From assembly GCA_035308025.1 (NCBI GenBank), contig DATGHL010000029.1, forward strand, positions 62,001 through 126,000: a stretch of 64,000 nucleotides of DNA, in the 5' to 3' direction. This document shows positions 3,117 through 64,000 of this stretch, piece after piece. Made by a program: the position numbers and the translations under genes. Each line of letters begins with the position of its first letter. Position 1 is the stretch's first letter. The DNA is from Candidatus Binataceae bacterium. Lineage in GTDB: Bacteria > Desulfobacterota > Binatia > Binatales > Binataceae. The notes beneath the pieces are model-generated. The model was not told where the DNA came from, did not search any database, and was given only the letters and a program-made list of their open reading frames with translations.

Positions 3117-4117
3117 CCGCGCGCGGCGCGTCACCGCGCATCGTGGAATTGGTGCTGGCGCTAGGCCTGCTGCTCGCTGCGGGATGCAACGGCGCGAAGC
3201 CGCGCGGCGATGATACGGGCGATGCGGCGCCCAACGTCGTGCTGGCGGTGAGCGGCGCGCGGGTTGTACACATGCCGCTCACTGCCGGCTTGCACCTGCT
3301 CGGCACGACCGCTGCGCAGCGCCATCTGACGGTCCGCGCACCGACGGCCGGCCGGATCATCGATTTCGCGCTGAAAAGCGGCGATGCCGTGCACCGCGGC
3401 CAGGTCGTTGCCCGCGTGATAAATCGCGAGGTCGAGGCCGCGCAAAATGGCCTGGCCGTGGCCCGTACCCTCGATCCGAGCGAAGCGCCCGCCTTCGCGG
3501 CGGCGCTGAAACGCAATCGGGCGCCCGCCGCAATCGCCGTGACGGCGCCCACGGACGCCGTGGTCTTCCAGCCGCTGGTCAGTGATGGCCAGATGGTTGC
3601 CGAGTTGGATCCGCTCGCCGACCTGATCGATCCGCGTAGCGTCTATGTCGAGGCGGCGGCGCCGCTGGACGAGCTCGGCAAGCTACGGCCGGGCATGGCC
3701 GCGCGAGTCACCTCGCCGCTGGCGGCCGGAGTGCAATATCCCGCCCGCGTCGCCGCCTTTTCGCCGAGTTTCGCCGCGGCCGGCGCCACGGCGCCCGTCA
3801 GAATCGAATTCAGCAGCGCTGCGCGAATTACGCTGGCCGGCGCGCCGGTCGAGGTCGCGGTGACGACGGCCTCCGTCGCGGCTGCGATCGTCGTTCCGGT
3901 CGCCGCGCTGTTCGACGACGCCACGAGCCACACCAGCTATGTCTTCATCGCGGGCGCCGACGGCATCGCTCATCGCACGACGGTGACGACCGGGATTCGT
4001 GTGCCGGGCGAGGTCCAAATCCTCGGCGGCTTGACGCCCGGCGAGGTGGTGATCACCTCGGGCGGCTTTGCATTGTCGGACGGCTTGCATGTGAAGGTCG
4101 CGCTCCCTCAGTCATGA
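3113..4117 (+). CDS. RND efflux membrane-fusion protein (periplasmic adaptor lipoprotein)
   Basis: This 334-residue adaptor has a lipoprotein signal ending LLLAAGC, with Cys25 as the predicted lipidated residue. A lipoyl half-motif follows (TAGRIIDFALKSGDAV, about residues 79-94). Then comes an unusually short hairpin region of about 25 residues, the second lipoyl half (TAPTDAVVFQPLVSDGQMV) and a beta-barrel/membrane-proximal part with LRPGMAARV and LTPGEVVITSGGF. It should link the pump to the outer-membrane channel. It overlaps both neighbours as ATGA, so the three efflux genes are translated together. The short hairpin suggests a variant contact with the TolC-like protein. Confidence 0.88.
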   Translation: MTARGASPRIVELVLALGLLLAAGCNGAKPRGDDTGDAAPNVVLAVSGARVVHMPLTAGLHLLGTTAAQRHLTVRAPTAGRIIDFALKSGDAVHRGQVVARVINREVEAAQNGLAVARTLDPSEAPAFAAALKRNRAPAAIAVTAPTDAVVFQPLVSDGQMVAELDPLADLIDPRSVYVEAAAPLDELGKLRPGMAARVTSPLAAGVQYPARVAAFSPSFAAAGATAPVRIEFSSAARITLAGAPVEVAVTTASVAAAIVVPVAALFDDATSHTSYVFIAGADGIAHRTTVTTGIRVPGEVQILGGLTPGEVVITSGGFALSDGLHVKVALPQS

Positions 4118-7100
4118 GCCGCAGCAACCCCGCCTTGGTCTTATTTCTGGTGCTCGTCGCCTCAGTGATCGGCGGGCTGGCCGCACGCACGATTCCCAGC
4201 GCGGTCTTTCCCGAGATTCAGTTCAATCGTGCGATCATCCTGGCCGACGCCGGCGATCTGCCCGCCACGCAGATGTTGGTGACGGTTACGCAGCCGCTCG
4301 AGCAAGCCGCCTATGGTGTCATCGGGGTGAGCCTGGTGCGCTCGACGACGACGCGCGGCAGCAGCGAAATCGACGTGACCTTTCTCGAGGGGAGCGACGC
4401 GGTGGCGACGTTTCAATTGCTGAGCGGGGCGGTCGCCCAGATCCGCGCAACTCTGCCGGCGAACGCGCACCTTGATACCCGGCTGCTGACCACCGGCACC
4501 TTCCCAATCATCGACGTCAGTTTGAGTTCTCCCATTCGCGGTCTCGCCGAGCTGACCGATATCGCCCAGTACGAACTCGCGCCGAGCCTCCATCGGATCG
4601 CCGGGGTCTATCGCGTCGAACTCGATGGCGCCAAGCAGCGCGAGTTCGTCGTCCGCCTCGATCCGGCGCAGATGCTCCAGCACGGGCTGACCGCGGCCGA
4701 CGTCGCGGCAGGCCTCGCGCGCGCTAATGTGATCGAGGCCGCGGGCCGTGTCGACGACGCCCATCGTGCCGTCCTGACCGTGGTGCGCGGCGACTTGCAC
4801 GATCGCGAGCAGCTCGCCGCGCTGTCGGTCGCGACGGTTAACCATCAACCGGTTTTTCTGCGCGATGTCGCTCAAGTCGAACTCGGGATTGTCGAGGACT
4901 ATATTCGTACGGCCGACGAAAAGGGTCCCGCGGTGCTGGTGGGAGTCTCGCGGCAGCCCGCAGGCAATACGGTAGAGATTTCCGCGCAGGCGCACGCAAT
5001 TATTGACGAATTCCGCGCCCGCTATCCTGACGTTCAGTTCTCCTTCTCCTACGATCAGGCCGGTCTGGTGACCGAATCCTTCAACAGTGTCCGCGACGCC
5101 ATTGTGCTGGGGCTCGCGCTGGCGGTGGTGATCGTTTTCCTGTTCACCTGGAGCTTTCTGAACGCGCTGGTCGCGGCGGTCGTGGTGCCGGGCACGATCG
5201 CGATCACCTTCGCGGTGATGAAACTGACCGGCATGACCTTCAACCTGATGACGCTGGGCGGCCTCGCCGCCGGTATCGGGCTGTTTATCGACGACGCGAT
5301 CGTGATGATCGAATCGATCCATCGTGCGCATAGCGGCGGCGACCGCGGCGCCGCGAGCCTCGCCGACGCACTGCGCGAACTGACGCGGCCGCTGATCGCC
5401 TCGACCGCCACGGTGATCGTGGTCTTTGCGCCGCTGGTCTTTGTCTCGGGCGTGACCGGCGTGTTTTTTCGCGCGCTGGCGCTGACCTTGGGCAGCGGGC
5501 TTTTCATCTCCCTGCTGCTCGCGCTTTTTTTCACACCCGCGTTCGAACTGCTGATCGAACGCTGGCGGCGTCCCGCGCGTCCGGGCGGCCGCACCGCGGA
5601 ACTGATTACCAAACTCTATCTATTGAGCGTGCGCCCCTTTTTGCGCGCACCGATCCTCGCGCCGATCCTCGCCGCGCTCGCGCTTGCCGCGACTTTCCTG
5701 CTTTACCGGACGATCGGCACCGATTATCTGCCGGCGCTAGATGAAGGCGCCTTCATCCTCGATTACATGACGCCGGCGCAGAGCACGCTCGCGGATACGC
5801 AACATTTGCTTGAGCAAATCGAGTCTGTGCTGAAAACTACTCCCGAGGTCGCGGCGTTCGCGCGCCGCACCGGCACACAGCTTGGCTTTTTCCTGACCGA
5901 GTCGAACCGCGGCGATATCTCCGTGCGGCTCAAGACGGCTCGCACTCGCGATATCTACGCTGTGATCGACGCGGTCCGCGGGCGGATCTCGAGGACGCTG
6001 CCCAACGTCACGATTGAGTTTTCGCAGGTCCTGCAGGACTTGATCGGCGATCTTTCCGGCACACCCGAACCGGTCGCGATCAAAGTCTTCGGCTCCGATC
6101 AGGCTACGATCGAAACTACCGCCGGCACGATCGCGGCGCGTCTGCGCGGCATCCCCGGGCTGGTGGACGTCAAGAGCGGGCTCGTCCTGAGCAATCCCGA
6201 GGCGGACGTCGTAGTTGATCAGACCGCGCTCGCGCGCTATGGACTCAACGCTGCAGACGTCGTCGCGACGCTCAAGACCGCGATCGAAGGTAACGTCGCC
6301 ACCGAGATCACGATGGGCGACCGTCTCTATGGCGTGCGCGTACGCTACCCCGCGGATTTCCGTCAGAACCTCACCCTGCTTCCCGAGGTGCTGATGCGGA
6401 CGCCTGACGGCGGGCTGGTGCCGCTCTCCAGCCTGATGACGCTGGTCTGGAAGGGAGAACGCACGGAGCTGGATCGCGAACGGCTGCGCGCGGTGGTAGA
6501 CGTCACCGCGCGGGTCGATCAGACCGACCTCGGCACCGCGATCGCGCGCATCAAGGCGAATCTGGCCGGGTTCGCACTTTCGCCCGGTGTGACCCTCGAG
6601 TACGGCGGCCTTTACGCCGAGCAACAGAAAGCGTTTCACCAGCTGACACTGGTGCTCCTCGCCGCCATCGTCGCGATGTTTCTGGTGCTGTTATGGGAAT
6701 TCGGGCGGCTGACACCGGCCGTCGCGATTATGCTCAGCGCGCTGGCCTCGCTGGCCGGCAGCTTCGCCGCTCTGACGCTCACGGGCCTCACGCTCAACAT
6801 CTCGTCCTTCATGGGGATCATCATGGTGGCGGGTATCACCGCGAAGAACGGCATCCTGCTGCTCGACCATGCCGAGCGTTCTACGGCCCCGGATGGACGA
6901 ACCGCGCTGATCGAAGCGGCGCAGATTCGCTTCCGTCCGATTCTGATGACCACGCTGGCGACCGCGGCCGGCCTGCTGCCGCTCGCTTTAGGACTGGGCG
7001 CGGGCGCGAAGGTGCAGCAGCCGCTGGCCGTCGCGGTAATCGGCGGGTTGGTCTTCGCGCTGCTGCTCTCGACCTCGCTGGCCGGCGGCATCTACTTGAT

Positions 7101-7134
7101 GGGCGGCGCACCGCGCGGCGATAAGGAAAACTAA
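4114..7134 (+). CDS. RND-family efflux transporter, inner-membrane pump
   Basis: At 1006 residues this has the full RND layout: TM1, a large periplasmic loop, TM2-6, a cytoplasmic link, TM7, a second periplasmic loop and TM8-12. The proton-relay Asp pair lies in TM4 (Asp393-Asp394 in GLFIDDAIVMIES), matching Asp407/408 of AcrB. The second half contains the expected GIIMVAGITAKNGILLLDH segment. It uses proton influx to expel substrates through the adaptor and channel encoded just upstream. Whether it exports drugs, metals or lipids is not visible. The stop codon shares four bases with the stop of the convergent vWA gene, leaving no room for a terminator between them. Confidence 0.93.
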   Translation: MSRSNPALVLFLVLVASVIGGLAARTIPSAVFPEIQFNRAIILADAGDLPATQMLVTVTQPLEQAAYGVIGVSLVRSTTTRGSSEIDVTFLEGSDAVATFQLLSGAVAQIRATLPANAHLDTRLLTTGTFPIIDVSLSSPIRGLAELTDIAQYELAPSLHRIAGVYRVELDGAKQREFVVRLDPAQMLQHGLTAADVAAGLARANVIEAAGRVDDAHRAVLTVVRGDLHDREQLAALSVATVNHQPVFLRDVAQVELGIVEDYIRTADEKGPAVLVGVSRQPAGNTVEISAQAHAIIDEFRARYPDVQFSFSYDQAGLVTESFNSVRDAIVLGLALAVVIVFLFTWSFLNALVAAVVVPGTIAITFAVMKLTGMTFNLMTLGGLAAGIGLFIDDAIVMIESIHRAHSGGDRGAASLADALRELTRPLIASTATVIVVFAPLVFVSGVTGVFFRALALTLGSGLFISLLLALFFTPAFELLIERWRRPARPGGRTAELITKLYLLSVRPFLRAPILAPILAALALAATFLLYRTIGTDYLPALDEGAFILDYMTPAQSTLADTQHLLEQIESVLKTTPEVAAFARRTGTQLGFFLTESNRGDISVRLKTARTRDIYAVIDAVRGRISRTLPNVTIEFSQVLQDLIGDLSGTPEPVAIKVFGSDQATIETTAGTIAARLRGIPGLVDVKSGLVLSNPEADVVVDQTALARYGLNAADVVATLKTAIEGNVATEITMGDRLYGVRVRYPADFRQNLTLLPEVLMRTPDGGLVPLSSLMTLVWKGERTELDRERLRAVVDVTARVDQTDLGTAIARIKANLAGFALSPGVTLEYGGLYAEQQKAFHQLTLVLLAAIVAMFLVLLWEFGRLTPAVAIMLSALASLAGSFAALTLTGLTLNISSFMGIIMVAGITAKNGILLLDHAERSTAPDGRTALIEAAQIRFRPILMTTLATAAGLLPLALGLGAGAKVQQPLAVAVIGGLVFALLLSTSLAGGIYLMGGAPRGDKEN

Positions 7135-8369
7135 GGGTCGGCGCGCGAGGACGTGAGATTGCGGCCGAAGGCGGAGACCTCCGTCTGCCACTGTTCGCCA
7201 AAGGCCAGGATTAGCACCTGCTGATTGATGTGCTCGTCCTTGGTCAGGCTTTTCCAGACCCCGCCGCCCGCCGCCGCCATCGCCTGATACGCGGCCTGTG
7301 TCTGGGCGTAGAAACTTGGCATATTCTCGATCGCGCCCGGCGGGGGTTTGATCCCTTGCGCCGCGTACCACTCGATGATGAAACGCTCGTGCTCCTCGCG
7401 CGTCACATCCACCGTGTTGAAGGCGCCGTTCTCGGCGCGAAACCGGCGAATCTCCTCGAGCACCGGCTCGTAGTCCTCATTGAACGGCGGCGTGTCGCCG
7501 ACCAGCACGATCACCTTGCGGGTGCCCGGCTTCCAGCCCATCCGATCAATCGAAGTGCGCACCGCGCCGAGCAGGTCCTCCTGCCATTCGCCGCCGTTAT
7601 GCGCCTTGATGCTCTCAAGAAACCCGATCAGCTTGTCGGGCGAAACCGTCAGTGGCTGGACCTCGATCGGCTCGCCGCGGCCGCCGTACACAACTATCCC
7701 GATGCGCGCAGCCGGCACGAGCCGATGGATCGAGAGCACCAACTGGCGCATCTTGTCCTTGGCGTCCGCCATCACCCGCAACATCGAGCCGGTGCCGTCG
7801 ATCACCAGCGTCACTTCGAACCCGGACTTGCGCAATCCCGCGATAAACCCGCCGAAGCCGGCGCCGACGCCACGCCCATAGCCGGCGCCGATACCGCCTC
7901 CGCGACCGGCGCCGATCCCCCCGCCGGCGACGCTGCGCACATAATGGCTCGCGCTCGTGATCGTCGCCGAGCTTTGCGAAGCGACTACCGGCCGCTCGAT
8001 CGGGATCGGCATTCGCATCTGCGGCATCGGCATCTCCGGCATGTCCAACTGCTTGAGCTCCTGCGTGCCGCCGCCCCCGCCGGCTTGCAGTTTGACCATG
8101 ATGAGATTGCGCCCGGCCTGCAGATGCACGCCCCACAGCAGCGCCAGAATGATCGCGACATGCAACGCAATCGAAATCTCGAAGGGTCCCTCGATGAAGC
8201 GAAAGACATTCCAGACCGATCGCCGCTGGCCGCCGAGCAGTGGGTCTTCGTCATTGTCGGCAGGCTGATCTTTAGTTCGCGCCCACGCCCGCCGATAGAT
8301 AAGAAGCGCGGCCACCACGACGACGGCAAGCGCGATCGCCGCGGCGGCCACTATGATCGTCAACGACAT
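7131..8369 (-). CDS. Inner-membrane protein with TonB-like helix and von Willebrand factor A domain
   Basis: The 412-residue protein has TM1 (about residues 3-24) followed by an Arg/Lys-rich cytoplasmic loop, then TM2 (about 65-83). TM2 carries S66-x3-H70-x6-L77, the first three positions of the SHLS motif of TonB and TolA, with V81 at the fourth. After TM2 come a Met/Pro-rich stretch (110-128) and a Gly-rich linker (148-174). The vWA domain follows, with MIDAS residues in DGTGSM (191-196), GGEWQED (259-265) and GDTPP (Asp292). The positive-inside rule places the vWA domain in the periplasm. It is the last gene of exbB-exbD-exbD-vWA and starts within the TGATG overlap with exbD2. I infer that proton-motive force from ExbB/ExbD acts on a vWA effector. 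Ligand and partner are unknown. Confidence 0.8.
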   Translation of the reverse strand: MSLTIIVAAAAIALAVVVVAALLIYRRAWARTKDQPADNDEDPLLGGQRRSVWNVFRFIEGPFEISIALHVAIILALLWGVHLQAGRNLIMVKLQAGGGGGTQELKQLDMPEMPMPQMRMPIPIERPVVASQSSATITSASHYVRSVAGGGIGAGRGGGIGAGYGRGVGAGFGGFIAGLRKSGFEVTLVIDGTGSMLRVMADAKDKMRQLVLSIHRLVPAARIGIVVYGGRGEPIEVQPLTVSPDKLIGFLESIKAHNGGEWQEDLLGAVRTSIDRMGWKPGTRKVIVLVGDTPPFNEDYEPVLEEIRRFRAENGAFNTVDVTREEHERFIIEWYAAQGIKPPPGAIENMPSFYAQTQAAYQAMAAAGGGVWKSLTKDEHINQQVLILAFGEQWQTEVSAFGRNLTSSRADP

Positions 8370-8890
8370 CAGGGTTCGCCCGCAGGCGCAACCGGCTCGG
8401 GCGCGGGACCAGCCCCGGGGGTGATCGACTCGGGCGCCGGCGCATTTACCGCCGGCGCGCCCAGGTCTGCGGCTGGCGGACCGTTGACGCCCGAAACCGC
8501 CAGTGCGATCTGATCCGCGCCGGCCCGCTTGGCAATATCGACGATGCGCACCGCGTCACCGAGGATAACTTTGGGATCGCCGTCGAAGACCACGACCTTC
8601 TTCGTGGTTTGCGCCAACGCAGCGCTGACCGCCGCGCCCAAAGCGTTTTCCGTGACGGACTTCTGATTGACGAAAATCTGATGGTCGGCGGTGTACGTTA
8701 CCGTGACCCCGCGCGCCTCCGGAGGCTGATTGGGCGCGTCGAGCCGCGGCAGATCGACATGCGCGGCGGACTCGATCGTGAGCGCGGTCGCAACCATAAA
8801 GATGATCAGCAGGACCAGGAAGATGTCGGTCAACGGCGTGATGTTGATCGATGCGAAGATTCCGCCTTCGTCGCCGCTCGGAATCGCCAT
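8369..8890 (-). CDS. exbD: ExbD/TolR-family protein with Pro/Ala-rich C-terminal tail (second ExbD copy)
   Basis: This 173-residue protein has a short cytoplasmic N-terminus and one TM helix with the conserved INITPLTDIFLVLL motif; Asp22 is the proton-carrying residue. A periplasmic ExbD domain follows (VTYTADHQIFVNQK, then VVFDGDPKVILGDAVRIVDIAK). It works with ExbB as the stator of a TonB-type motor. Unlike the neighbouring copy it ends in about 45 extra residues rich in Pro, Ala and Gly, which would lie in the periplasm. It starts 48 bp after the first exbD and overlaps the vWA gene, so the four genes form an operon. Confidence 0.9.
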   Translation of the reverse strand: MAIPSGDEGGIFASINITPLTDIFLVLLIIFMVATALTIESAAHVDLPRLDAPNQPPEARGVTVTYTADHQIFVNQKSVTENALGAAVSAALAQTTKKVVVFDGDPKVILGDAVRIVDIAKRAGADQIALAVSGVNGPPAADLGAPAVNAPAPESITPGAGPAPEPVAPAGEP

Positions 8891-8938
8891 ACTTTGATCC
8901 TGGATCCTGATCTTGGACGAGGGCCAGCTAAACCGGCT

Positions 8939-9364
8939 TCATCCGGCGCTCGAGTCGGTAGCCGAACGTTTGGCCGCGATCGCGATTTGATCTGCGCCGG
9001 CGGCTTTAGCGATGTCGAGGATGCGCACCATGTCGCCGAGCAGCACCGTGCGATCGCCCTGAAAAATCACAATTTTCGCGTCGACTCGTCCGAGCGCCTC
9101 GTGGAGCGCTGCTTCGAATTCCCGCTCGGGCACGTCCTTGGAGTTGACGAAAAGCTCGTGGTTCGCGGTGTAGGTGACGATCACACCCTTGTTCTCGGGC
9201 GTGGTCTCCTCGGCCGAGGGCAGGTCTACATGGGTCGCTGATTCCACCGCCACCGAGGCGGTCACCATAAAGATGATCAAGAGGACGAGGAAAATATCCG
9301 TCAGCGGCGTGATGTTGATCTCCCAGAACATCCCGCCCTGGCGACCCGGCGTACTAATTGCCAA
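8939..9364 (-). CDS. exbD: ExbD/TolR-family proton-channel protein (first ExbD copy)
   Basis: The 141-residue protein is a normal-length ExbD with one TM helix in INITPLTDIFLVLLIIFMV (Asp23 is the conserved proton-transfer residue) and a periplasmic domain with VTYTANHELFVN and GDMVRILDIAKAAGADQIAI. The start is a TTG at 9364 that overlaps the exbB stop; GGGAGAG lies six bases upstream. It pairs with the ExbB protein encoded just before it. Two different ExbD copies beside one ExbB may form a hetero-oligomer or serve two partners. Confidence 0.9.
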   Translation of the reverse strand: MAISTPGRQGGMFWEINITPLTDIFLVLLIIFMVTASVAVESATHVDLPSAEETTPENKGVIVTYTANHELFVNSKDVPEREFEAALHEALGRVDAKIVIFQGDRTVLLGDMVRILDIAKAAGADQIAIAAKRSATDSSAG

Positions 9365-9995
9365 CGGCGGCTCTCCCGGCGATAGCGGCGTCGATCAGCC
9401 GGGCCGCACAAATATGGATGGTCGCGTTAATCCGCTCGATCTTCTGCGAAAAATAATTGTAGAAAATGACCGCGATGATCGCGACCACCAGCCCCAGCGC
9501 GGTCGAGATCAGCGCCTCCGAGATGCCTGCGGCGACCACCGAAAAACCGCCGGTTCCCATCACCGCCATCGATTGGAAGGCGACCAGAATTCCGACCACC
9601 GTGCCGAACAGGCCGATGAACGGCGCCGACGCCCCCGAAGTCGCGAGCACCCAGATCATGCCGCGCAGTTGCTGGAGTTCGGCGAAGCGCCGTTCCTCGT
9701 CAATTTCTTCAAGGCGCGGGCGGTCGGCGGATTGCGCCTCCGTCACCAGTTCGTGGAAAATGCGCTCGCCCGCGCTGCGACGGCCTTTCAGATGATCGAG
9801 CGCGGCGCCGAATTTACCTTGCTTGAGCGGTCCAATCATCTGCTCGGCGCTGCGTCGCGCCCGCGTCATCACGCCCGCCAGCGCCCACACTCGTTCCAAA
9901 ATTATGGTTACGCAAACGACCGAGATGATCAGCAGAGGATAGGTCGCGTACCACCCCTGCTGAATCATCGCGAAGATATTGAACTGATTCTGCAT
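9354..9995 (-). CDS. exbB: ExbB/TolQ/MotA-family proton channel
   Basis: From the ATG at 9995 this is 213 residues with three TM segments: near residues 16-35, then in the APFIGLFGTVVGILVAF region, then in STALGLVVAIIAVIFY. The motif GASAPFIGLFGTVVGI is the family signature. ExbB forms the pentameric channel that energises TonB-like proteins. An open frame runs up to 10133, but that extension is not ExbB-like. AGGGCGG lies upstream of the ATG at 9995, so I chose that start. It is the first gene of the exbB-exbD-exbD-vWA operon. Confidence 0.92.
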   Translation of the reverse strand: MQNQFNIFAMIQQGWYATYPLLIISVVCVTIILERVWALAGVMTRARRSAEQMIGPLKQGKFGAALDHLKGRRSAGERIFHELVTEAQSADRPRLEEIDEERRFAELQQLRGMIWVLATSGASAPFIGLFGTVVGILVAFQSMAVMGTGGFSVVAAGISEALISTALGLVVAIIAVIFYNYFSQKIERINATIHICAARLIDAAIAGRAAVGN

Positions 9996-10429
9996 CGCTA
10001 ATCCGCCCTGAAAGTTGCGCCTGAAGTTATGCCTGAACCATATCGCCCGAGCCGTTATGCATGATCGTTGCCACGGAACCGGCACTGAACAGGTATTCAG
10101 AGTAAGCTCTAGTGCCAAGAAACCGCGCCTCATGTCAAGAATATCCTTCGTTGCATTTTCTCGGCAACGATCGATTTGCGCCGAATATGACGTGGTTTCG
10201 CCGCTTTTGGTCGGGCACCGGACGCGACCTGATCGGGTTTAGCAACCACGGCCGTAGCTGCTACGGAAGCACCACACTGGAGTGAAGGCGGACACTGGCT
10301 GGACGCCGATTGGCGCTTTGAGGCACGATGAGCCAGCCGATCGCAGCGGACGCGGCGCTCCAGCGTGCGATGAAAGCGACGCCGCAAGCCGCGGAGCGTC
10401 AATTACGGCGGCTGGATGGTGGGGCCTTG
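9996..10429. other. Divergent intergenic region between exbB operon and NHL lipoprotein gene
   Basis: These 434 bases separate two divergently read genes and should hold both promoters. On the minus strand a TTGACA (10138-10133) is present but has no convincing -10 at 17 bp. A 6-bp inverted repeat GGCACT/AGTGCC spans 10081-10116 and encloses CTGAA/TTCAG. A compact hairpin CCGTAG-CTG-CTACGG lies at 10252-10266. No gene or known riboswitch is recognised. Confidence 0.4.
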
Positions 10430-11380: not shown

Positions 11381-11410
11381 CCGTTAAGCTCACACAGGGA
11401 GGTCATGCCG

Positions 11411-13837
11411 ATGGCGGGACCACTGACGCAAGCAACCCGCGTACTAGACTTGTCGGAGCGCTCGCCGGCCGCCGCGATCGCCGCGATGGTGCTTGCCGAT
11501 CTCGGCGCGGAGGTGATTCGGGTCGAACCGCCCGGAGGAGATCCGCTCCGCGCACTATCCGGTGCGCGCGTCTGGTTGCGCGGACAGCGGAGTGTCGTTG
11601 TAGGCGATGCCGAGATGCGCAGCGGCGCATGGTTGGCGCTGCGCGATTCGGCCGACGTGATTATCGACACCGCGCATCCCTGGATCGACAAGCCGACAGG
11701 ATTGCTTGACGGCGCCACGCCGGGGCCCCGGCAAATTCTCGCCGTTCTTAGCGCCTATCCGCGGACGATCGCAGAGCTCGCGCACGCGGGCAGCGGGCTT
11801 AATCCTCCAGTGTGCGGCGAGCTGATTGAGGCGCAATACGGGATGCAAAATTTCCAGCAGGGAGTGCGGCCAGAGGGACCGCATTTTCTCGGCTGGCCGC
11901 ACGCGATATACGGCGCAGCGTGGATGCTCCAGATCGGCATCCTGGGCGCGCTCTACCATCGTGCTCGCAGCGGCGAGGGCCAGACCGTAACGACCTCGCT
12001 GCTCGACGGCGCGGCTATCCTCAGCAACGCGCGCTGGCTCGGCGGCAAAAACTTAGGCCCGATGCTACTGACCGGCAGCCGAATCACCACCCGCCCGAGC
12101 AATCTGCGCCTGATTGTCGGGCTCTTCCAGTGTTCGGACGGCTACTGGATTCAGGTTCACACCGGGCCGCGCGGCGCTTTCGACCGCATGCTCAAGGTGG
12201 TCGGACGCGAGGATCTGATTGTCGAAAATGCGGGCGTCCATATTCTCGCGACGCCGCTCGCGCCCGCCGTCGTCGCCGATTTGTGGGGCTATCTTGACGA
12301 CTTCTTTAAGACCAAACCGTCCAGCCATTGGTGCGAGGCGCTCGCACAGGCCGATGTCTGTTGCATGCCCGCGCTCAAACCCGGCGAGGCGCTCTGGCTG
12401 GAGCAGATGGAGGCGAACGGTCTGGTCGATATTGCTGCCGACGGCGCGCGGATGCTCGGCCGGCTCGCGAAGTATAGCCGCAGCACGATCGAGCTCCGGC
12501 GCGAAGCGCCGTCGTGCGGGCAGGACAACGCGACGCTGCTAACTGATCGGGGCGCGGCTGCCAATGGCGCGAAACCTGCCATCGTCTCAAGCGTTGCGCG
12601 CAAGATCGCGACAGCCGATAGTCCGGCGATCGGGCCGCTCGATGGAATCCTGGTTCTCGACTTTGGCGCCTATATGGCCGGACCTTTCGCCAATCGGCTC
12701 TTCGCCGATCTCGGAGCGCGCGTGATCAAGGTTGAGGAGTACGGCGGCGATCCGATGCGCGGTCCGCAACTGGGTTCGTTCCTCGGGGTGCAGCGCGGCA
12801 AGGAGAGTATCGCGGTGGATCTGAAATCCAGCGAAGGGCGGCGCATCGCCCACGATCTCGCCCGCCGCGCCGACGTGGTCCATCACAATCTCCGCGCGGG
12901 CGCGATGGAGCGTCTCGGCGTCGGCTGGGAGGATCTGCGCACGCTCAATCCCCGTCTGATCTATTGTCATTCTTCCGGCTACGGAAATGCGGGCCCGTGG
13001 GCCAAGTTGCCGACCTTCGAGCCCCTGCACTCGGCGCTGACCGGGATGCTGGTGCGCACCGGCGGCGACGGCAATCCGCCCGACCACTATCTGACGCACA
13101 TGGACTATGGCTGCGGGCTGACCTCCTGCGCGATGGTGCTGGCGGCGCTGGTCGAGCGCGAGCAGAGCGGTGTCGGCCAGTACCTGGAAGTTCCGCAAAC
13201 CGGCGCCGGCCTGTTCGCGATGTCGGACGTGCACGGTTCCGCTCAACGCAAGGTCGAAACCTTTCCGCTCGATCGCGAGCAGCGTGGGCACTCGCCGGCC
13301 AATGCGCTTTATCGCACCGCCGACGGCTGGGTCGTGATCGCTTGCTATAGCGAACGTGAGTGGCTCGGCGTGTGCCGTGCGCTTGGGCTCGACCTCGCCC
13401 GCTGGCCGAGTTACGTAGAGACGCGCCAACAGCGCCTTGAGGCAAGTCCGTCGGCGACGCTCATCGAGTCGGCGATGTCGACGCTCAGCACGGCGTCGGC
13501 TCTACGCCGCCTGCGCGCCGAGCAGGTTCCAGCGGCGTCGCCTGCGCCGTTCACTCCCGCCGAGATAAACAGCGAGCCAACGCTGACCTCGCGTGGCGTG
13601 ATCGTGACCGAGGAGCACTTCGACGCGGGCGAAGTTACCGAGGTCGGGCATACGGTGCGTTTCAGTAATGCGAATCGTTGGAATCTCCGTGCCGCGCCGG
13701 TTACCGGTCAACATAGCGTCGCGATTCTGCGCGAGCTCGGCCGCGGCGAGGCCGAAATCGCCCACTTGGTCGAGCGCAAAATCGTCAATGCGGGGCGGGT
13801 TGCCCAGGCAAGTCCGGAACTGACCAAGCCGGCCTAG
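11411..13837 (+). CDS. Class III (CaiB/BaiF) CoA-transferase, two fused domains
   Basis: About 808 residues, made of two head-to-tail family III CoA-transferase domains. The second domain (about 412-800) has the start motif ILVLDFGAYMAGPF, then ADVVHHNLRAGAMERLG, and Asp565 in THMDYGCG, which aligns by eye with the catalytic Asp of formyl-CoA transferase. In the first domain the same position is His164 (in GWPHAIYG), so that half is probably not catalytic. These enzymes move CoA between carboxylic acids in the catabolism of carnitine, bile acids, aromatics or steroids. AGGGAGG ends eight bases before the ATG at 11411, which I prefer to the ATG at 11405. The substrate is unknown. Confidence 0.87.
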   Translation: MAGPLTQATRVLDLSERSPAAAIAAMVLADLGAEVIRVEPPGGDPLRALSGARVWLRGQRSVVVGDAEMRSGAWLALRDSADVIIDTAHPWIDKPTGLLDGATPGPRQILAVLSAYPRTIAELAHAGSGLNPPVCGELIEAQYGMQNFQQGVRPEGPHFLGWPHAIYGAAWMLQIGILGALYHRARSGEGQTVTTSLLDGAAILSNARWLGGKNLGPMLLTGSRITTRPSNLRLIVGLFQCSDGYWIQVHTGPRGAFDRMLKVVGREDLIVENAGVHILATPLAPAVVADLWGYLDDFFKTKPSSHWCEALAQADVCCMPALKPGEALWLEQMEANGLVDIAADGARMLGRLAKYSRSTIELRREAPSCGQDNATLLTDRGAAANGAKPAIVSSVARKIATADSPAIGPLDGILVLDFGAYMAGPFANRLFADLGARVIKVEEYGGDPMRGPQLGSFLGVQRGKESIAVDLKSSEGRRIAHDLARRADVVHHNLRAGAMERLGVGWEDLRTLNPRLIYCHSSGYGNAGPWAKLPTFEPLHSALTGMLVRTGGDGNPPDHYLTHMDYGCGLTSCAMVLAALVEREQSGVGQYLEVPQTGAGLFAMSDVHGSAQRKVETFPLDREQRGHSPANALYRTADGWVVIACYSEREWLGVCRALGLDLARWPSYVETRQQRLEASPSATLIESAMSTLSTASALRRLRAEQVPAASPAPFTPAEINSEPTLTSRGVIVTEEHFDAGEVTEVGHTVRFSNANRWNLRAAPVTGQHSVAILRELGRGEAEIAHLVERKIVNAGRVAQASPELTKPA

Positions 13838-63526: not shown

Positions 63527-64000
63527 CTAGCGCGGCAGGTGGCGCAACACGCCCTCGCGTTCGAGCCGGTTCACCTCTTCGGGAGAGTAGTCGAGGTACG
63601 ACGTCAGAATCGTGCCGTTATGCTCGCCCAGAAAGGGCGCTTCCAGTTCGAGCCGCTGTGGAAAAGCGGAAAACCGCAGCGGAAAACCGGGAATCTGAAA
63701 CTCGCCAAGCACCCGATCGTGCACCGTCTGCACGGTTTGCCGCTCGACCAGATGGGGATGACGCATCGCCTGCTCGACGCTCAGCACCGGCGCCGACGGC
63801 AGCCGCGCCGCACGCAACACCTCGACCGCCGCCTGATCATTAGGGAAGGACTGCAGCCATTTCTCTATCACCACGATGATTTCGCTGCGATTCTTTACTC
63901 GATTCGCGACGTCGACAAAGCGCGGGTCGCGCGCCAGCTCCGGACAGCCCATCAGCTCGCACAGCTTGGCCCAATGATGGTCCAGCCAGGCAAAGACAAA
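63527..64000 (-). CDS. Class III CoA-transferase, C-terminal part (partial at window edge)
   Basis: The frame is open to the window end, so only the last 157 or so residues are present. The C-terminal lobe has LCELMGCPELARDPRFVDVANRV, LRAARLPSAPVLSVEQAM and PFLGEHNGTILTSYLDYSPEEVNRL, as in CaiB/BaiF proteins such as formyl-CoA and alpha-methylacyl-CoA enzymes. The catalytic Asp lies outside. It is codirectional with the thioesterase gene. Confidence 0.88.
   Translation of the reverse strand, partial: FVFAWLDHHWAKLCELMGCPELARDPRFVDVANRVKNRSEIIVVIEKWLQSFPNDQAAVEVLRAARLPSAPVLSVEQAMRHPHLVERQTVQTVHDRVLGEFQIPGFPLRFSAFPQRLELEAPFLGEHNGTILTSYLDYSPEEVNRLEREGVLRHLPR

Follow-up and report, generated by a model that had tools for sequence, protein, structure and literature searches.

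A single-chain family III CoA-transferase with one predicted working site from a Candidatus Binataceae bacterium

Introduction

Why a CoA-transferase should keep, in a single chain, two domains of which one lacks the catalytic residue is the question raised by a gene of a Candidatus Binataceae bacterium (GenBank assembly GCA_035308025.1, contig DATGHL010000029.1, positions 62,001 to 126,000 of the forward strand; this whole stretch of 64,000 nucleotides is referred to here as the window). A preliminary description of the gene proposed a fused pseudo-dimer with one degenerate site, a view that is well supported by the sequence, by a confident structural model, by an asymmetry kept in relatives and by the analogous enzyme BbsEF. 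Here we describe the domain layout, the residues, the conservation, the predicted fold and the evolutionary pattern of the encoded protein, which is, with high probability, a single-chain pseudo-heterodimer of the family III CoA-transferase fold with one predicted working site, at Asp565. A tandem design with one live site has already been described in other bacteria, and the window protein is an uncharacterised further example.

Domain architecture and predicted structure

The ORF may start at an ATG at 11405 or at 11411, and its stop codon ends at 13837. The start at 11411 is favoured, because MAGPL stands there in the orthologues L022, L023, L024 and L086 and because AGGGAGG ends 8 bases upstream. 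Pfam identifies PF02515 (CoA_transf_3) in two stretches of the single chain (E 3.5e-132 for the whole protein), which bears out the two CaiB/BaiF domains first described, and the score of 441.4 bits against a curated cut-off of 23.3 assigns the protein to family III (CaiB/BaiF). The boundaries of the features are listed in Table 1; profile positions refer to a CoA-transferase profile of 397 positions that was built from 47 single-domain relatives and has the catalytic Asp at column 170.

Table 1. Features of the fused CoA-transferase gene and their positions in the window
Feature	Position	Strand	Evidence
Two-domain family III (CaiB/BaiF) CoA-transferase, 808 amino acids	11411..13837	+	ORF; PF02515 twice; MAGPL start in orthologues
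First CoA-transferase domain (predicted inert), about residues 1-375	11411..12535	+	Profile positions 8-384 of 397, 132.7 bits
Residues 164-167 (His-Ala-Ile-Tyr), predicted site of the lost nucleophile	11900..11911	+	Ile166 (or Ala165) faces Asp565
Linker, weakly conserved, residues 376-407	12536..12631	+	Mean pairwise identity 0.14; low pLDDT
Second CoA-transferase domain (predicted live), residues 408-793	12632..13789	+	Profile positions 4-396, 328.0 bits
Codon of the predicted catalytic Asp565	13103..13105	+	SUGCT alignment; profile column 170; kept in relatives

The AlphaFold2 model of the whole chain, computed from 33 sequences, has a pLDDT of 85.8 and a pTM of 0.92, with the linker standing out at a pLDDT of 53 and 48 in the blocks covering residues 381-400. 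The second half of the model resembles solved family III chains with Z scores of 23.1-28.6, the highest being that to 1pt5 (rmsd 2.6 over 371 residues), and is assigned to the family III fold. The structural matches listed for the whole model all lie within residues 402-798, and the first half was therefore modelled alone; this weaker model (pLDDT 73.2) matches family III structures with a TM score of about 0.6-0.7.

Catalytic residues of the two halves

In the second half the last helix of the Rossmann part has its catalytic Asp, Asp565; the first half has none. The assignment of Asp565, made already in the preliminary description, is confirmed by the alignment of the solved SUGCT (E 7.4e-43), whose own Asp falls on this residue, and by profile column 170. 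The same description had placed His164 opposite Asp565, which did not hold. Column 170 contains Ile166 in the first half, with His164 two columns earlier, and the AlphaFold2 model has corresponding helices at 164-187 and 563-586, offset by 399, so that Asp565, the third residue of its helix, pairs with Ile166. The helix 164-187 is recovered in the separate model of the first half. In phmmer alignments to the racemases Far and MCR it is Ala165 that stands at their catalytic Asp. The alignments and helix ends thus leave the register of the first half uncertain by one residue, between Ile166 and Ala165. His164 can be set aside as the matching residue, as it is two columns off in the profile and is replaced by Leu in L024, a 61% identical orthologue. 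None of His164, Ala165 and Ile166 is acidic, and the first site is degenerate as originally claimed, with no acid at the position of the nucleophile by profile, by model or by the racemase alignments. At column 170 the first halves of the window protein, L022, L023, L024 and L086 have I, I, I, V and A, respectively.

The first half has lost more than its nucleophile. Among 40 fused ORFs from the same bacterial family, the Asn at column 97 of the CoA-contact motif, which we take to be Asn96 of FRC, is found in 39 second halves and in no first half. The AGP loop of these ORFs is nearly invariant in the second halves (A in 40/40, G in 39/40) and is less often kept in the first (A in 26/40, G in 12/40).

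Conservation and distribution

Three further genomes of the bacterial family, G038, G035 and G026, contain the fused ORF at 73, 70 and 61% identity, as does a Dehalococcoidia MAG (L086) at 54% identity. Mean pairwise identity among the five orthologues is 0.65 for the N-terminal large domain, 0.72 for the C-terminal large domain, 0.55 and 0.54 for the N- and C-terminal small domains, and 0.14 for the linker. Of the two halves the first has changed more rapidly, with 65% identity to L022 vs 76% for the second. A live site that draws on the small domain of the first half predicts better conservation of that domain than of its C-terminal counterpart, and this was not supported by the values of 0.55 vs 0.54.

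Close orthologues are patchily distributed. In the class, at E 1e-110 and with up to six candidates scored in each genome, they occur in 4 of 148 genomes. Among 395 genomes sampled from the phylum, with up to two candidates scored in each, only the genome of the window itself has one. G020, from the same genus, has no orthologue at E 1e-110 and possesses a more distant fused relative, L042. The window protein matches 11 of 50,697 phage records, the top match having 30% identity, and 1,200 plasmid records, none of them at 60% identity or more. A contig labelled as a Bifidobacterium breve MAG encodes a fused CoA-transferase close to a G026 protein (L091:3703-6378); the label looks wrong, or the bin contaminated.

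The genome of the window, 3.63 Mb in size, contains 44 PF02515 matches, and among the loci covering all 44 the window gene is the only one with both domains in a single ORF. Another CoA-transferase III gene (G000:C29:125617-126726) crosses the right edge of the window and occupies 63617-64000 on the minus strand.

Asymmetry in fused, split and reversed forms

The preliminary description asked whether the asymmetry of the two halves is kept in homologues. Within the same bacterial family the pattern of a non-acidic first half and an Asp in the second was found in all 40 fused ORFs, the window protein included, a regularity that goes beyond chance. These 40 ORFs are those with both columns readable, and their loci were chosen among the sequences most similar to the window protein. 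A further 40 fused ORFs came from named contigs; since L085 is the contig of L023, the 80 rows represent 79 distinct ORFs. In the named-contig set 38 second halves carry Asp and 2 carry Gly; of the first halves, 9 carry Asp, 6 carry Glu and the remaining 25 carry some other residue. Judged from these residues, a single live site is not a rule of the fused architecture, because first halves with Asp (9/40) or Glu (6/40) also occur. The two proteins with Gly show the reversed order, with Asp in the first half, and are encoded in Nocardia alni (L097:8971-11508) and Subtercola (L123:9010-11511).

Separate proteins show similar combinations. The genome of the window has seven pairs of neighbouring genes in which one product bears the Asp and the other does not (L013, L071, L074, L076, L078, L079 and L080), and the Asp-less members of the L013 and L076 pairs have Glu at the catalytic column. 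The best solved relatives of the L078 pair are the chains of BbsE and BbsF. In the eighth pair, L072, Asp occupies that column in the protein grouping with the inert ones.

Relatives of the window type are also encountered as two adjacent ORFs, in L051:177-2603 and L053:194-2593, with the inert ORF followed after about 12 bases by the Asp ORF. They are nested among fused relatives, and may be the products either of fission or of repeated fusion.

Phylogenetic analysis

An IQ-TREE tree of 78 domains was computed with the catalytic column excluded; it comprises 24 of the 80 fused rows, 2 split pairs, 7 pairs from the genome of the window and 12 single proteins from the same genome. The first halves of the window type form one clade (support 100/97). 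The BbsE-like inert domains, split and fused together, form a separate clade (100/100). Each inert clade groups with its own live partners, the window type in a group of 32 rows (98/93) and the BbsE-like type, along with three single-domain proteins, in a group of 31 rows (100/98). A single group uniting the window-type and the BbsE-like inert domains was rejected by the AU test (p-AU 0.00012), a p-value that is optimistic, as the group was named after the first tree had been seen; this test used 44 rows (17 vs 27) and a simpler model. In the reversed fusions L097 and L123 the two halves are sisters (100/99) and are placed elsewhere in the tree.

Because the AU test separates the two inert sets and the reversed actinobacterial fusions fall elsewhere, the tree suggests that the one-site pseudo-heterodimer probably arose at least three times. 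A more far-reaching proposal is that these at least three origins (the window clade, the BbsE/F-like clade of split and fused forms, and the reversed Nocardia and Subtercola forms) reflect selection for the loss of one site, with the inert half remoulded for bulky or branched acids in the manner of ChsH1-ChsH2; this is put forward tentatively and we regard it as doubtful.

Comparison with known systems

PtmU4, compared by description only, resembles the window protein in its tandem CoA-transferase domains, its weakly conserved linker and the location of its catalytic Asp (Asp430) in the C-terminal domain. Mutants of Asp430 are reported to lose activity 125-400-fold (PMC6006322). PtmU4 differs in making thiocarboxylic acids together with PtmA3 and sulfur-carrier proteins, whereas no such cassette is found among the ten annotated genes around the window gene. 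DddD, the DMSP CoA-transferase/lyase, likewise compared by description only, also possesses two CaiB domains per chain, with its catalytic Asp602 in the second, but it uses DMSP as substrate and adds a lyase step. Its CaiB domains are given as residues 1-416 and 439-821 (PMC7174347), and it is described as an outgroup to the one-domain and the other two-domain enzymes (PMC6006322). For some SAR202 CoA-transferases DddD is reported as the top match (PMC5395668).

BbsEF, the succinyl-CoA:(R)-benzylsuccinate CoA-transferase (PDB 9fn0 and 9fol), combines one Asp-bearing chain with one Asp-less chain. Asp178 belongs to chain B and is aligned with a Tyr of chain A, and the title of 9fol is 'D178-CoA adduct'; our literature search found no structure paper on BbsEF, and the comparison is based on the PDB titles and alignments. 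The window protein differs in being encoded by a single ORF instead of as two separate chains. It differs also in descent, as the L078 pair, which stands in for BbsE and BbsF in our trees, belongs to another clade and the inert types are rejected as one group. The window protein is thus not a heterodimer of the BbsEF type, being fused in one ORF and belonging to a clade separate from the BbsE-like domains of its own genome. The steroid hydratase ChsH1-ChsH2 is comparable in principle, in that an inert partner domain is described as serving a live one (PMC11321319), but its MaoC fold and its reaction are both unrelated to the window protein.

The window protein adds a member, with a corrected catalytic register, to this described enzyme architecture. 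If one of the two sites of an obligate interlocked dimer has been lost again and again, each case is a natural replicate in which to ask what keeps an inert partner domain in place; fused, split and reversed examples for such tests are already available.

Proposed mechanism

The established chemistry of family III passes through an aspartyl anhydride and then an aspartyl-CoA thioester. By analogy with its relatives, the window protein is expected to follow this chemistry and to be interlocked around a shared site. Asp565 of the second half would attack the acyl-CoA donor to form an aspartyl anhydride, which would give way to a beta-aspartyl-CoA thioester from which CoA could be handed to the acceptor carboxylic acid. 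The first half would contribute its small domain to complete the pocket of Asp565, and the corresponding pocket on the other side would be inert. The first half would then be retained because the halves interlock and the live site needs the small domain of its partner. In YfdE, Asp173 and His233 of each site are reported to be supplied by different subunits (PMC3720670), and the sites of Mct are described as cavities at the dimer interface (PMC9813914).

Gene neighbourhood and the role of the first half

The ten annotated genes around the window gene encode AcrB-type, vWA, ExbD, ExbB, NHL-repeat, SLT transglycosylase, GST, GlnE and P450 proteins, the last about 7 kb away, and one protein without a Pfam match; they say little on function. 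ExbB, ExbD and the vWA-domain protein, which has a glycine-rich stretch, are encoded in an apparent operon at 7131-10133 on the minus strand, beside an AcrB-type exporter at 4114-7134 on the plus strand.

Some orthologues have other neighbours. At L165:9044-15324 the G026 orthologue adjoins genes for a short-chain dehydrogenase, a thiolase-like protein, a ChsH2-type DUF35 protein and an amidohydrolase, and at L086:6459-8065 the Dehalococcoidia orthologue adjoins thiolase-like and ChsH2-type DUF35 genes. Thiolase-like and DUF35 genes also lie alongside L092, a more distant relative of the same clade. Both genes were found in 4 of the 82 sources scanned, namely these three and L152, which has no fused ORF of 600 amino acids or more and is not among the tree rows; 61 of the 82, the window and L085 included, contain none of the four query genes. 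Homologues of that thiolase in the genome of the window (12 matches, the best at 39%, none on the contig of the window) imply nothing specific for the window gene. In steroid side-chain breakdown such aldolases are described as working with DUF35 partners, and the inert domain of ChsH2 as reshaped for steroid rings (PMC11321319). The orthologue neighbours give a hint of the breakdown of a bulky or branched acid in an aldolase-type degradation pathway, a lead and not a result, because the window and most scanned loci are without these neighbours.

The same neighbours bear on the view, anticipated in the preliminary description, that the inert half has a ligand-binding or regulatory role, its vacated pocket accommodating an acyl-CoA, a free acid or a bulky portion of the substrate so as to serve or control the live half. 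The thiolase-like and ChsH2-type DUF35 genes at L165, L086 and L092 agree with it, as does the precedent of ChsH2, whose inert MaoC domain is described as holding the steroid rings for ChsH1 (PMC11321319). However, these genes are missing beside the window gene and in L085, L087, L088, L093 and L100 (some of these loci are short), and the hydratase Shy is described as handling bulky steroids with no inert partner (PMC11321319). The strong conservation of the first half, which might speak for a ligand, could be explained by structural need alone, and the CoA-contact Asn is missing from all 40 first halves. We consider this view unlikely, and prefer the single-site pseudo-heterodimer in which the first half completes the pocket of Asp565.

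It is very improbable that another acid of the first half takes over and that both sites work. Glu137 and Glu140 would be the candidates, being invariant in four orthologues and located in the model on the helix preceding the catalytic helix. Glu137, however, lies within one column of Glu537 in the live half, an acid found together with Asp565, and so does not look like a replacement nucleophile; moreover, the CoA-contact Asn has been lost as well.

Still less credible is a different enzymatic activity of the first half, for instance that of an alpha-methylacyl-CoA racemase. The best PDB sequence matches of this half are indeed the racemase chains Far (E 2.4e-18) and MCR, but His126 and Asp156 of MCR, mutants of both of which are named among the structural matches listed, face Ser128 and Ala165 in the alignment, and the racemase assignment was rejected. 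The first halves also join the fused second halves in the tree and not L081, a protein from the genome of the window that was judged to be racemase-like.

Finally, the faster evolution of the first half (65% vs 76% identity to L022) could point to a pseudo-domain in decay, or to a fusion of two genes created by a lost stop or an assembly error. Both are practically eliminated, as independent assemblies (G038, G035, G026 and the Dehalococcoidia MAG) contain the ORF fused and open and the N-terminal large domain is conserved at a mean identity of 0.65.
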